A stretch of DNA of 39,920 nt from a virus. The notes under the pieces were generated by a model. It saw only the letters and a list, made by a program, of their open reading frames with translations. It did not search any database and had not been told where the DNA came from. This document shows, one piece after another, positions 28,398-34,885 of the stretch. The stretch lies in IMG/VR virus record IMGVR_UViG_3300021375_000064, positions 1-39,920 of that record. One strand, written 5' to 3'. Position 1 is the first letter of the stretch. Each line of letters starts with the position of its first letter. Both the position numbers and the translations under genes were made by a program.

Positions 28398-29609
28398 ATG
28401 GGAACTCAAGTTAGTTATCAGGATCCAGACGGCACGCTTAACATTGTTAAGTTTGAAGCTGCACTGGTTGAAAAGCACGGCGAACTTTTGACTGTTTTTG
28501 AAAAAGCGGAAGAAGAAGCTAAAAATGCAAACGCCCTCTCCGCCGAAACCAAATCGGCTGTTGAAGGCATTGCGTCAGAACTGAACAGCCTTTCAGACGC
28601 CATTCAAGAGCTTCAGCAGAAGACTGCCGGAGAAACCGATTCGGACGATGTTCAAGAAGCGCTCGGCAAGCGATTCCTCGAGACTGATCAGTGTAAGGCG
28701 CTGATGGAAGGTCGTCAAGGTTCTGCGCGCATGGACATGAAAGCTGCAATCATTAACGCCACAGGCCAGAATCAGCCGTTGGTTCCTTCAGACCGTTTGT
28801 CTGGAATCAATGCGGTTCCGAATCGAATGATGACCATTCGTGATTTGCTGCCGACCACAACAACCACCAGCAACTTGGTCGAGTTCGTTCGTGAGAACGT
28901 CTTCACCAATAGCGCGGCAACAACCGTGGCCGGATCACCTCAACAGTTTGAAAATGTAACTAAGCCCGAGTCGAGCATCACGTTCACTTTGGCCCACGAA
29001 GCAATTCAGACGCTGGCGCATTGGATTCCTGCTTCTAAGCAGGTTCTTGACGATGCACCGCAGCTGATGAGTTATATTTCTGGTCGTCTGGTGTATGGCT
29101 TAAAATTGTACGAAGAGAATCAATTGCTTAATGGCACAGGAGCCAATGGTCAATTGAACGGCTTGCGAACTCAAGCAACAGCTTATGTTCAAAGCTCTTC
29201 TCCTCACACAACCAACGAAATTGACGTTATCCGTGACGCAATTCGGCAGGCTCAAGTTTCTGAGTATATGCCGGACGCAATCGTTCTTAATCCGCAGGAT
29301 TGGTACGACATTGAGATTCGCAAAGTTGGTAGTGCGGATGATCGATATGTTATTGGTAATCCTCGTCAGCTTATGGGCTCTCCACTTTGGGGACTTCCTG
29401 TCATTGTTACGAATTCAATGACGTCTGGAAACTTCCTGTTGGGCTCATTCCAAATGGGCGCTGAAATCAAGGATCGTGAGCAGAGTTCTGTTGAAGTCTC
29501 TCGTGAAAACTCTGATAACTTTGTTAAGAACATGGTTACCATTTTGGCGGAAGAACGATTGGCGTTGATCGTTTATCGCACAGAGTCTCTGATCACAGGC
29601 ACTTTATAA
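28398..29609 (+). CDS. major capsid protein (HK97 fold) with N-terminal scaffold region
   Basis: The 403-residue protein has an N-terminal helical, Glu/Ala/Gln-rich region (about 1-100) that looks like the delta domain of HK97 gp5, which acts as internal scaffold and is removed by the protease encoded just upstream. The mature part includes typical segments such as TLAHEAIQTLAHWIPASKQ, VYGLKLYEENQLLNGTG and ADDRYVIGNP. GGTAA lies before the ATG. A strong terminator follows at 29635-29665. The cleavage position is not certain; the region around residues 95-115 is expected. Confidence 0.93.
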   Translation: MGTQVSYQDPDGTLNIVKFEAALVEKHGELLTVFEKAEEEAKNANALSAETKSAVEGIASELNSLSDAIQELQQKTAGETDSDDVQEALGKRFLETDQCKALMEGRQGSARMDMKAAIINATGQNQPLVPSDRLSGINAVPNRMMTIRDLLPTTTTTSNLVEFVRENVFTNSAATTVAGSPQQFENVTKPESSITFTLAHEAIQTLAHWIPASKQVLDDAPQLMSYISGRLVYGLKLYEENQLLNGTGANGQLNGLRTQATAYVQSSSPHTTNEIDVIRDAIRQAQVSEYMPDAIVLNPQDWYDIEIRKVGSADDRYVIGNPRQLMGSPLWGLPVIVTNSMTSGNFLLGSFQMGAEIKDREQSSVEVSRENSDNFVKNMVTILAEERLALIVYRTESLITGTL

Positions 29610-29634
29610 TCGAAAGCCTCACGGCGAAACCCAA

Positions 29635-29665
29635 GAAGCCTCTGGAACGTCAGAGGCTTCTTTTT
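29635..29665 (+). terminator. intrinsic terminator after capsid gene
   Basis: A perfect 10-bp stem GAAGCCTCTG (29635-29644) with its complement (29651-29660) and a 6-nt loop is followed by five T residues. It would raise the ratio of capsid protein to downstream products. Confidence 0.92.
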
Positions 29666-29676
29666 GCAGGTGGAAA

Positions 29677-29955
29677 ATGAAAATAAGATTCGTAAGCAAC
29701 CCCATCACCCCGCACGGCTCTTTCAGCAGAGGCGAAATTATTGATTCTTCTCAATATCCGGAAGCCTTTCTCATGCATCTCGTGCATGATTGCGGCGCAG
29801 CGGAATTCATTGATGCTCCTGTCGCAGCTATACAGAACAAGCTCGACCCCGCATTGAAAAGAGAGCTCAAAAAAAAAGAGGATTCACAGTCGCAGCCACA
29901 GGCCCGAGCCTCAAAAAAGAAAGCGTCGAAAAAGCGGCCAAACACACCCAAGTAA
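29677..29955 (+). CDS. small head-region protein; possible frameshift donor
   Basis: The 92-residue product starts at an ATG with AGGTGG upstream. The first 50 residues (IRFVSNPITPHG, then EAFLMHLVHDCGAAEF) resemble small phage head-region proteins with a short beta-barrel-like core. The C-terminal 40 residues are highly charged and low-complexity (Lys, Ser, Gln). Codons 65-67 are AAA AAA AAA within a run of nine A residues (29869-29877). A -1 shift there joins the protein to the MptE-like reading frame; without it translation ends at 29955. Confidence 0.65.
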   Translation: MKIRFVSNPITPHGSFSRGEIIDSSQYPEAFLMHLVHDCGAAEFIDAPVAAIQNKLDPALKRELKKKEDSQSQPQARASKKKASKKRPNTPK

Positions 29956-30464
29956 TTTTAGTCAACGACGCATACAAGTTGCTTCCTGATGGCGATTACT
30001 TGTATGCGTGTGACAACCGTTGGTGGCGATATCACAAAGATGCAGTCCAAGCGCAATTCAGCGGCAAAAAGTATTATCCAGTTGATGCCGACCGCCAAAA
30101 CCTCATAGATCCGCACATCGTTGCAGATCTCGATATGTTTGGGGTTGCAGCTTCTTTTGGAGGAGGGTTTGATCCCACACAAATCAAGTACGGGCCGCGA
30201 GACGGCTCTGCCAACAGCACTTACCAAGCATTAACACTTGCGTTCCTCCTAGGAGCTGAGTATGTGGTTCTGTTGGGCCTCGATCTTTCGGCAGGCCATT
30301 TCTTCGGCGACCACCCACCGGAAATACGCGGCCCGAATGAACACTCCCGCCAGAAGAATGCATTCAAGACGTTTCCCAAAGACAAACAAGTTTTCAATGC
30401 CTCCCCAACAAGTAAACTAGATGTTTTTCCGAAGTATACTTTGAGCGAAATATTTGATGATTAG
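29877..30464 (+). CDS. MptE-like (DUF115-type) protein, reached by -1 frameshift
   Basis: This frame encodes FTVAATGPSLKKESVEKA directly after the A9 run, then VILVNDAYKLLPDGD, YACDNRWW and FLLGAEYVVLLGLDLS. The ATGPSL nucleotide-binding loop and the following strands are those of MptE/DUF115-type Rossmann proteins found in glycosylation loci. Between the in-frame stop at 29811 and the TTG at 29979 there is no ATG, GTG or TTG, so the conserved N-terminus can only be made by a -1 shift from the 92-residue gene (fusion of about 262 residues), by an ATT start, or if the A-run length is a sequencing error. A start at the TTG at 29979 would lose the GPS loop. Confidence 0.6.
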   Translation, partial: RGFTVAATGPSLKKESVEKAAKHTQVILVNDAYKLLPDGDYLYACDNRWWRYHKDAVQAQFSGKKYYPVDADRQNLIDPHIVADLDMFGVAASFGGGFDPTQIKYGPRDGSANSTYQALTLAFLLGAEYVVLLGLDLSAGHFFGDHPPEIRGPNEHSRQKNAFKTFPKDKQVFNASPTSKLDVFPKYTLSEIFDD

Positions 30465-31119
30465 AGACTTGTATGCAGGAAAGCGCAGCAAGAACAGACT
30501 GGGAGTTATTGTCGGCACAGGCCCCTCTCTGGATGAGGCTGATGTTAAGCTTGCTCGTGCAATGGGAGTTCCTTTGTTTGGGGCCAACCGAGCCGCAGAG
30601 CTGGGAATGGATGTTGTGTTGGGTTGCAACACGCAGTTTTGGGACAGATATTATTTGTGGTATGAAGGCATGAATTGCGACTTGTGGTCCACTCGTCCGG
30701 ACGCTCTTAGCAATAGGTGGCCTGAAGTTCGATACATCCGAGAAGTCTGGCGAGACGGAATTTCGGTTGTTAATTCTTGCATTCACGCGCACCACGGATC
30801 AGGGCCGCAGATCTTTAATCTCGCGTACCACTATGGGATTCGAACCTTTTTACTGATAGGTTGGGATATGCGATACGGCGGTAAGATCTCAGACACAAAT
30901 TATGAAGAGCCTCGTCATTTTTTCGGTGAATATCCACCCTGCCTTCAGCATTGGCCGAAGACAGGCCCGAATGGCGAGCTTACAGGATTAATCAAGGCGA
31001 TGGAAACTATCGATCCGGAAAAATATGCAATAAAAGTTTTCAACTGCACGCCAAATAGCGCGTTGACGCACTTTCAATCAGAAGACTTCACGGAGGCTGT
31101 TCATGCCTATTGCTCATAA
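30457..31119 (+). CDS. MptE-like (DUF115-type) protein, second copy
   Basis: The 220-residue product starts at the ATG at 30457, overlapping the previous stop by 8 bp. It has LGVIVGTGPSLDEAD at the N-terminus, the same nucleotide-binding loop as in the preceding gene, then FGANRAAEL and GISVVNSCIH, and FLLIGWDMRYGG followed by a His-rich segment. The two proteins are probably distant paralogues. Such proteins are found next to glycosyltransferases in phages and bacteria; their biochemical role in phages is not settled. A small role in glycan transfer to virion proteins is an inference from neighbours. Confidence 0.7.
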   Translation: MIRDLYAGKRSKNRLGVIVGTGPSLDEADVKLARAMGVPLFGANRAAELGMDVVLGCNTQFWDRYYLWYEGMNCDLWSTRPDALSNRWPEVRYIREVWRDGISVVNSCIHAHHGSGPQIFNLAYHYGIRTFLLIGWDMRYGGKISDTNYEEPRHFFGEYPPCLQHWPKTGPNGELTGLIKAMETIDPEKYAIKVFNCTPNSALTHFQSEDFTEAVHAYCS

Positions 31120-31849
31120 AGAACCTTTGAATGTGTGGTGTGTGTTTTGGGGAACCAAATACAGTCCCGCTTATGTTTATGCGCTGAGAGAGGCTCTGGA
31201 AGTTAATCTCAGAGTCCCATTCATTTTTCGTTGTATGACTGATGAAGATCTCCCTTTCATTGATTGCGTGCCTTTTCCGGACAAAAACTTGGAAGGTTGG
31301 TGGAATAAGATGCAATTATTTGCCTCTGACACCAAAAGAAACTTATACTTTGATCTTGACGTCATCATCACTGGGAGTTTAATTTACCTTGAGCAATATT
31401 TTCAATACAAATTCGATTTTTCTGCGCCATCAAATTGGGCGGCGTCTGGTTTTGGCGGCATACAGTCTTCTGTTATGGCTTGGGATCATAGACCTGACAT
31501 CTGGGAAGCTTTCAACCGAAACCGAGAAGAGAATGTCAGTTCTCTTTATGGGGATCAAGAATTTATATATCAGTATCTTGGGGAGGATTGGAATCGGATT
31601 GAAGGCATTTATTCATTCAAGTATCACTGCCTTCAGTCTCTTCGCGGCGACGAGCGTGTTGTTGTTTTCCACGGCAAGCCTGACCCCCATGAGACCGTAA
31701 ATACATGGACGTGGCAATATACTATAACCCTGCGCAATCTCATCAGTCTGATCACGGAATTTGGCTTGCTAGAGGCCTTGAAGCGTTGGGACATAAAAGT
31801 TATCTCACAGCCCAAAGGAGACCGATCAGAGGAGCTCACATCCATATAG
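31103..31849 (+). CDS. GT-A-type glycosyltransferase
   Basis: The 248-residue protein has CGGAGG before its ATG. It has the features of a GT8-like GT-A enzyme: LEGWWNKMQLF, the metal-binding DxD in LYFDLDVIITG, a GFGGIQSSVMAW acceptor/donor loop, GDQEFIYQYL, and VVVFHGKPDPHE near residue 190, which usually marks the end of the domain. The 50 residues beyond that point overlap the next gene in another frame by 145 bp and look atypical, as if an earlier stop was lost. The enzyme would transfer a sugar from a nucleotide donor, possibly to a virion protein. Confidence 0.78.
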   Translation: MPIAHKEPLNVWCVFWGTKYSPAYVYALREALEVNLRVPFIFRCMTDEDLPFIDCVPFPDKNLEGWWNKMQLFASDTKRNLYFDLDVIITGSLIYLEQYFQYKFDFSAPSNWAASGFGGIQSSVMAWDHRPDIWEAFNRNREENVSSLYGDQEFIYQYLGEDWNRIEGIYSFKYHCLQSLRGDERVVVFHGKPDPHETVNTWTWQYTITLRNLISLITEFGLLEALKRWDIKVISQPKGDRSEELTSI

Positions 31850-32388
31850 TTTCTGGGCCATACTGGATGCTTCCTGTTTTCAACAGACTCAAGAAGAAGT
31901 ATAATGTGCTCTGGTTGGATCGCAGCCTTATGCGTCCTGATCCCTTTCACGTTTCTCTCGGTTGGCTTCTTCCGCAAGGAGGAAGAGCGTTCCCTCAAGG
32001 CAAAGGTCGTAAAAAGCTACGACTCGCCTCGATGAAGCGCGGCCATCGGACGCTGTGCTTGGTTGATTACGGGAAATCGCCTGTTAAGCCAGACGCAGAC
32101 ACCATAAGGTATCACCCAGACCAAGTGACGCCGACAGAGTCTTTGAAGAAAGTTCTTGAGTGCCACGACGCAGCTTTCGGCGAGTCTAGCAGTTCATTGG
32201 TGAAAGCTGCACTGATGGGCTTGCGAGTTCACGCGGCAGATCCCAACCATATTTTAAATCAACCCGATTGGGCCAGCACTCTGCCTTATGCAGACTGGTC
32301 AGAAGCTGAAATTTCCCGAGGAGAGCCATGGGCACTATTACTACCATTATTGAGCCAACTGCAGAGCCAGTCACTATTGCAGAGCTGA
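31705..32388 (+). CDS. putative GT-B-like glycosyltransferase
   Basis: The 227-residue protein begins VAIYYNPAQSHQSDHGIWLARGLEALGH, in pieces a strand, a loop and a helix (GIWLARGLEALGH) typical of the N-terminal domain of GT-B enzymes, and later has FGESSSSLVKAALMGLRVHA, which resembles the donor-binding ESxSxxxxEA-like helix of such enzymes. It is shorter than most GT-B proteins. The start overlaps the GT-A gene by 145 bp and the end overlaps the connector gene by 61 bp. Its last 20 residues are Leu/Gln/Ser-rich and probably unimportant. The fold assignment is tentative. Confidence 0.55.
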   Translation: MDVAIYYNPAQSHQSDHGIWLARGLEALGHKSYLTAQRRPIRGAHIHIVSGPYWMLPVFNRLKKKYNVLWLDRSLMRPDPFHVSLGWLLPQGGRAFPQGKGRKKLRLASMKRGHRTLCLVDYGKSPVKPDADTIRYHPDQVTPTESLKKVLECHDAAFGESSSSLVKAALMGLRVHAADPNHILNQPDWASTLPYADWSEAEISRGEPWALLLPLLSQLQSQSLLQS

Positions 32389-34576: not shown

Positions 34577-34885
34577 ATGAAGCAAGTGAAAGTCGGAATT
34601 CCTCGTCGCCAAGGTCCATTCTCTCTTGAGAAATTGAGGATTGCGGATCTTGACACGTTCGTTAATAAGACGCAGACTGCGGGCCTCGGTTCTCAGATGC
34701 TCACCTTGCTGACGTTGACTTTGGTTGACAAAAAGGGCAAGCGTGTTTTTGATGACGAGGAGCAAGCAGAAGCTGCATTGGGCGCGGCTTCAATTTTGGA
34801 TTTGGGAATGCAGTCGTTTGAGTATAGTGAATTGAACAAACTCGCTGACATAAGCAAGCGATTAGAGGCAGCCCAAAAAAACTGA
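34577..34885 (+). CDS. tail assembly chaperone, short form (G-like)
   Basis: The 102-residue product begins with basic residues and contains FSLEKLRIADLDTFV and a helical C-terminus, consistent with lambda gpG-like tail chaperones. The gene ends CAA AAA AAC TGA, so the canonical -1 heptamer A AAA AAC (34876-34882) directly precedes the stop. Zero-frame translation gives this short form. AAAGG lies before the ATG. Confidence 0.82.
   Translation: MKQVKVGIPRRQGPFSLEKLRIADLDTFVNKTQTAGLGSQMLTLLTLTLVDKKGKRVFDDEEQAEAALGAASILDLGMQSFEYSELNKLADISKRLEAAQKN
34876..34882 (+). other. -1 ribosomal frameshift site
   Basis: The heptamer AAAAAAC is in the correct phase (A AAA AAC) at the end of the G-like gene, one codon before its TGA stop. 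A -1 slip continues as CTG ATT AAA into the 34942-35199 frame without a stop. This matches the conserved lambda G/GT arrangement. Confidence 0.9.

Follow-up and report, generated by a model that had tools for sequence, protein, structure and literature searches.

A programmed −1 frameshift, most likely at the level of the ribosome, is the probable origin of two proteins that share one start codon in a virus record of 39,920 bases (the window, analysed at its full length), and from sequence comparison we assign this reading a probability of about 0.85. Most ribosomes would finish translation of a small gene at the stop codon at 29955 and thereby release a protein of 92 residues consisting of a compact N-terminal domain and a basic tail. 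Some ribosomes would slip back by one base at the motif A_AAA_AAA within a run of nine A and continue in the frame of an MptE-like domain, giving a product of 262 residues that joins this N-terminal domain through a short linker to a domain with GT42/MptE fold. We infer both the translational mechanism in this virus and the product ratio, in which the fusion would be the minority product. Because the −1 frame lacks a usable start codon, slippage is the only evident route to the domain, and about 50 diverse phages and prophages, including Pseudomonas phage D3, seem to produce it solely in this way, judging from their gene arrangement.

The window carries the late operon of a tailed phage in the order terminase, portal, protease, HK97-type capsid protein, the gene pair with the slip site, a second MptE-like gene, glycosyltransferase, possible GT4-like gene, head-tail connectors, major tail protein, tail chaperone and tape measure; the features from the capsid gene to the possible GT4-like gene are on the plus strand. 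In the interval between the gene for the major capsid protein (HK97 type, 28398–29609; Pfam Phage_capsid 1.4e-46, phrog_10 major head protein 7.8e-65) and the small gene (29677–29955, 92 codons in frame 0), a hairpin (29633–29665) with a perfect stem of 12 bp and a T run behind it resembles a terminator. Of 45 lineages, 35 have a GC-rich hairpin behind the capsid gene, 16 of them with the T run, and this element is probably a conserved terminator or attenuator; if it causes termination, it would reduce transcription into the small gene. The −1 frame with the MptE/GT42-fold domain (29877–30464, 195 codons plus stop; phrog_4603 1.6e-30) is followed by the second MptE-like gene (30454–31119), which provides a contrast within the window, as it has its own start codons (TTG 30454, ATG 30457). 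To the same cassette belong a glycosyltransferase gene (31103–31849; phrog_1962 2.2e-16) and a possible GT4-like gene (31705–32388), for which a weak match to Pfam Glyco_transf_4 was below the cutoff (E 0.069). This candidate GT4-like gene begins within the glycosyltransferase gene, sharing 145 bases (31705–31849) with it, likewise at −1, but has an ATG. Further downstream, the tail assembly chaperone gene (34577–34885) ends in A_AAA_AAC (34877) with the −1 frame open past its stop, which looks like the usual G/GT frameshift site.

The original prediction, made from the letters of the window, described a 92-codon open reading frame (29677–29955, frame 1) that contains the A9 run at 29869–29877, where frame 0 reads CTC AAA AAA AAA GAG, and these coordinates hold. 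It was likewise correct that the sequence FTVAATGPSL begins directly after the A run in the −1 frame, and that no ATG, GTG or TTG occurs in this frame between the TGA that closes it on the 5′ side (29811–29813) and a TTG at 29979. A −1 slip after AAA AAA AAA gives a fusion of 67 + 195 = 262 residues, as had been calculated. Two alternatives were offered for this arrangement, a programmed frameshift or a wrong homopolymer length. Homopolymers are prone to errors, A9 is the longest run of A or T in the window (the next longest has 8), and a genome with A10 would join both frames into one continuous gene. However, a stretch of 901 bases that spans the site, with the A9 run, recurs at 100% identity in two IMG/VR contigs (3300000117_001866 and 3300021378_002915) that come from other datasets. 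Since both probably belong to the same virus species, they test the base calls and not the biology, but the closest non-identical relative (L126, 39% amino acid identity), which has a different small gene, also contains A9 and no start codon. The out-of-phase arrangement moreover recurs without homopolymers in isolate genomes, e.g. in D3 and in prophages of P. aeruginosa, so that we consider a sequencing or assembly error very improbable. The programmed frameshift is in turn strongly supported by the conservation of the out-of-phase arrangement without start codon and of slippery motifs throughout the family, including lineages with the non-homopolymeric motifs C_CCA_AAG, C_CCU_UUN and G_GGA_AAG.

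Relatives were gathered from phage records, viral contigs and bacterial genomes with the MptE-like domain as query, and after removal of sequences with more than 80% amino acid identity, 46 lineages with the domain next to a capsid gene remained. The comparison among homologous phages that the original prediction had suggested showed that in 45 of these 46 lineages, which are not fully independent of each other, the domain is read in −1 relative to the gene before it. Automatic calls of another phase for two lineages were tracing artefacts that were resolved by reading the codons. In 37 of the 46 lineages, the stretch from the in-frame stop to the GPS motif of the domain is free of ATG, GTG and TTG; start codons account for 9 of 1539 codons in the −1 frame compared to 131 of 3078 codons in the two remaining frames (Fisher p 2e-14). 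In several lineages, the stop that closes the −1 frame is only 9–20 codons away from GPS, on its 5′ side, and coincides with the A run or immediately precedes it. Tetraselmis virus S20 and the Pseudomonas phages Psp6 and D3 have the same order of capsid gene, small gene and MptE-like frame in −1, and their deposited annotations start the second gene too late, within the conserved domain, and list the two parts as genes of their own. Among 155 loci with a hit to the small domain, no natural in-frame fusion of both domains was found.

An independent start of the MptE-like gene, either at a rare start codon (ATT, ATC or CTG) or by ribosomes that re-initiate close to the stop of the small gene, would make slippage dispensable, and the window indeed contains an in-frame ATT at 29853, a few codons 5′ of the A run. 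One lineage (L024) has a TTG just past the stop of the small gene and the annotation of Psp6 begins at a GTG beside the stop. Against this explanation, the lineages share no conserved start position, and in four of them the −1 frame opens only 4–12 codons before the conserved first strand of the domain. In 8 of 52 lineages, a start codon is located no more than 20 nt from the upstream stop, and re-initiation there would cut off the conserved GPS loop. The same applies to the window, where the first strand and the GPS loop are encoded upstream of TTG 29979, the first possible start, so that initiation at this codon would break the fold and the whole domain needs the frameshift. Together with the evidence from D3 described below, these observations make an independent start improbable.

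For the analysis of slippery motifs, the capsid-adjacent lineages were combined with seven lineages without a detected capsid gene, which were added because the arrangement was seen in them, to a set of 52. Heptamers of the type X_XXY_YYZ or C_CCY tetramers, in frame and located between the −1 stop and GPS, are present in all 52 lineages, compared to a mean of 19 and a maximum of 30 after codon shuffling, although the C_CCY class was defined post hoc, after inspection of the data. In the other two frames, a heptamer or C_CCY tetramer is present in 16 and 22 lineages. In-frame heptamers alone occur in 35 of the 52 lineages (shuffled: mean 9.7, maximum 17). In phages with low GC content, the site is A_AAA_AAA or A_AAA_AAG, and the −1 stop often coincides with the run or immediately precedes it; C_CCA_AAG is found in D3 and one further lineage, C_CCU_UUN in S20 and five others, G_GGA_AAG in two lineages, and about one third of the lineages have only the weaker C_CCY tetramer. 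In measurements in E. coli, C_CC.A_AA.G, G_GG.A_AA.G and A_AA.A_AA.G were ranked highest, with C_CCA_AAG, the motif used by D3, as the best known, and C_CC.U_UU.N as well as the tetramer C_CC.Y were also prone to shifting (PMC4066793). Plain folding of the RNA downstream of the site revealed no conserved stimulatory structure (mean z −0.64 versus −0.42 in control windows). Shine-Dalgarno-like sequences were detected in 21 of 52 lineages compared to 8 of 52 in the control. The AGAGAG at 29860–29865 was not convincing as a stimulator of the Shine-Dalgarno type.

The distribution of these motifs also bears on the possibility that the RNA polymerase instead of the ribosome slips. Stuttering on A9 would yield messages with A10 that fuse both frames and are read straight through into the MptE-like frame, and long A runs are known sites of transcriptional slippage (PMC5009743). 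Besides the window, eight lineages contain A8–A9 at this position. However, five others have just 6–7 A at the same place, and further relatives replace the homopolymer by C_CCA_AAG, C_CCU_UUN, G_GGA_AAG or C_CCY; a run of about 8–9 or more A is thus a property of the window and not of the family as a whole, in which many members have A6–A7 or no run. The in-frame phasing of the heptamers is a hallmark of the ribosomal mechanism. The phasing of the sites, together with the many that are not homopolymers, therefore favours ribosomal slippage, and transcriptional slippage appears unlikely as the general explanation, although it may contribute at the A9 of the window itself.

Coding constraint was analysed in 51 D3-type sequences, in all of which the C_CCA_AAG heptamer is invariant. 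Before the heptamer, variable sites favour the third codon position of frame 0 (43 of 84), whereas after it they favour the third position of the −1 frame, both in the overlap (23 of 41) and beyond (98 of 145), and this switch of frame at the heptamer is significant (Fisher p 0.001 and 3e-11). Upstream of the slip site, no coding constraint is detectable in the −1 frame, which excludes an upstream start such as the GTG/TTG at −66 in D3; this codon is not conserved and is absent from four D3-type sequences. Within the −1 frame, 134 synonymous and 58 nonsynonymous changes indicate purifying selection. The lack of a start codon in the window would also be compatible with a decayed MptE-like gene that leaves the small protein as sole product. 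Given the purifying selection, the −1 frame that is intact with its invariant residues in 52 sequences and the confidently predicted fold, decay is hardly conceivable.

The AlphaFold model of the −1 domain has a mean pLDDT of 92.1. In a Foldseek search restricted to the PDB, neither the small domain nor the enzyme-like domain had a clear match; with a second aligner, the best matches of the −1 domain were CstII (Z 11.6), HPPK from M. jannaschii (Z 10.1) and SteA (Z 9.8), and the remaining matches were far lower, at Z about 4. The alignment to CstII with bound CMP comprised 180 of 192 residues with an rmsd of 3.7, at 14% identity and with a weak profile match (E 0.016). With 20.3 bits, the match to the MptE-like family PF01973 was below the gathering cutoff of 34.6. 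According to the model, the −1 domain has a CstII-like fold, which does not imply sialyltransferase activity. It has the fold and the GPS and SG motifs in common with CstII of Campylobacter jejuni (GT42) and with phrog_4603, annotated as 'alpha-2,3-sialyltransferase'.

The product of ordinary termination of the small gene consists of the N-terminal domain (residues 1–45), a linker and the basic tail. Residues 1–40 were modelled with pLDDT values of 94–95, compared to about 55 for the linker leading to the slip site. Close relatives of the 92-residue protein were absent from phage records, and viral contigs yielded just the two identical contigs; a tblastn search of phage records with the small domain of one relative also found nothing. 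Relatives of the small domain match phrog_2616 or phrog_7993 and, weakly, DUF7210, all of unknown function. Structure comparison indicated a weak resemblance to the N-terminal domain of ribosomal protein L9 and to GINS domains, and there was a sequence match to 3anw_B (E 3e-5). The tail that is specific for the short product (29878–29955) overlaps the enzyme-like domain and is basic, as was likewise noted for the frame-0 tails of D3 and six other lineages; in several lineages, it ends in an RGRPRK-like (AT-hook-like) motif. Selection may act on this basic tail too.

Homologues with their own start and without a slippery run, which the original prediction had named as evidence against a frameshift, do exist, but only outside the capsid-adjacent position and in a few relatives such as L024 and L221. 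Most MptE-like relatives outside this position possess a start codon near GPS, and own starts are also seen in a few alphaproteobacterial relatives. The single real exception among the 46 capsid-adjacent lineages is L024, in which the two genes are separate (1363–1640) and the TTG follows just after the stop of the small gene; in a quick tree, it is placed beside a frameshift lineage. A whole-genome survey of two classes added the own-start relatives L220 and L221 and one that closely matches L119. The quick tree implies no fewer than 12 transitions between the slip state and the own-start state, 2 of which are enforced by branches with good support. Since L024, L220 and L221 do without a frameshift, the fusion is not required in every lineage, and these three represent natural comparison cases for the frameshift-free state. 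The same MptE/GT42-like domain with its own start codon is found in pmgN-pmgO of phage P1, gp10 of PAJU2, Klebsiella phage Eowyn and Cronobacter phage JK004, where the homologue is not annotated in the deposited record despite an ATG. In P1 (2835–3594), pmgN overlaps pmgO, which has ATG starts and is at +1 of pmgN, in contrast to −1 in the capsid-adjacent family.

Extensions of head proteins by −1 slippage are known from 10A/10B of T7 and T3 and from the major head protein of Lactobacillus phage A2, in which a fraction of a head-region protein likewise receives a C-terminal extension (PMC5009743). These extensions are Ig-like or short and are attached to a major capsid or tail protein, whereas here the parent is the small gene that follows the capsid gene, extended by a domain with the GT42/MptE enzyme fold. 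The G/GT tail assembly chaperones share the −1 slip at a heptanucleotide, the long minor fusion and the location in the late operon. In contrast, G/GT is an unrelated gene between the major tail protein and the tape measure, while the site described here directly follows the capsid gene, and this gene pair is devoid of a tail-chaperone domain. No description of a frameshift in this gene pair was found in the main texts of the papers searched, which included few subscription journals. Relative to this literature, the gene pair, its spread and the enzyme-fold extension may be new, whereas frameshifted head and tail extensions as such were already known.

Going by gene position and fold only, the N-terminal domain would carry the enzyme-like domain to the assembling head, beside the glycosyltransferase cassette, so that virion proteins would be modified. 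As a more general idea, with chances slightly short of even, we propose that tailed phages equip a small head-associated protein with a glycosyltransferase-like enzyme and set a minority ratio by frameshifting, thereby modifying the virion. The same tentative proposal regards this as a widespread class, in which lineages swap A_AAA_AAR, C_CCA_AAG, C_CCU_UUN, G_GGA_AAG and C_CCY and keep the −1 architecture. In the late operons of tailed phages, the gene pair appears to be, besides the tail chaperone, a second site of frameshifting with wide conservation, and it would yield an enzyme-fold fusion. Frameshifting would explain the truncated appearance of the annotated genes in D3, Psp6 and S20. 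The natural sites at one homologous junction, from C_CCA_AAG to bare C_CCY, constitute a test series for the rules of bacterial −1 slippage, and in phage D3, the function of the MptE/sialyltransferase-like gene in the head region would become directly testable.
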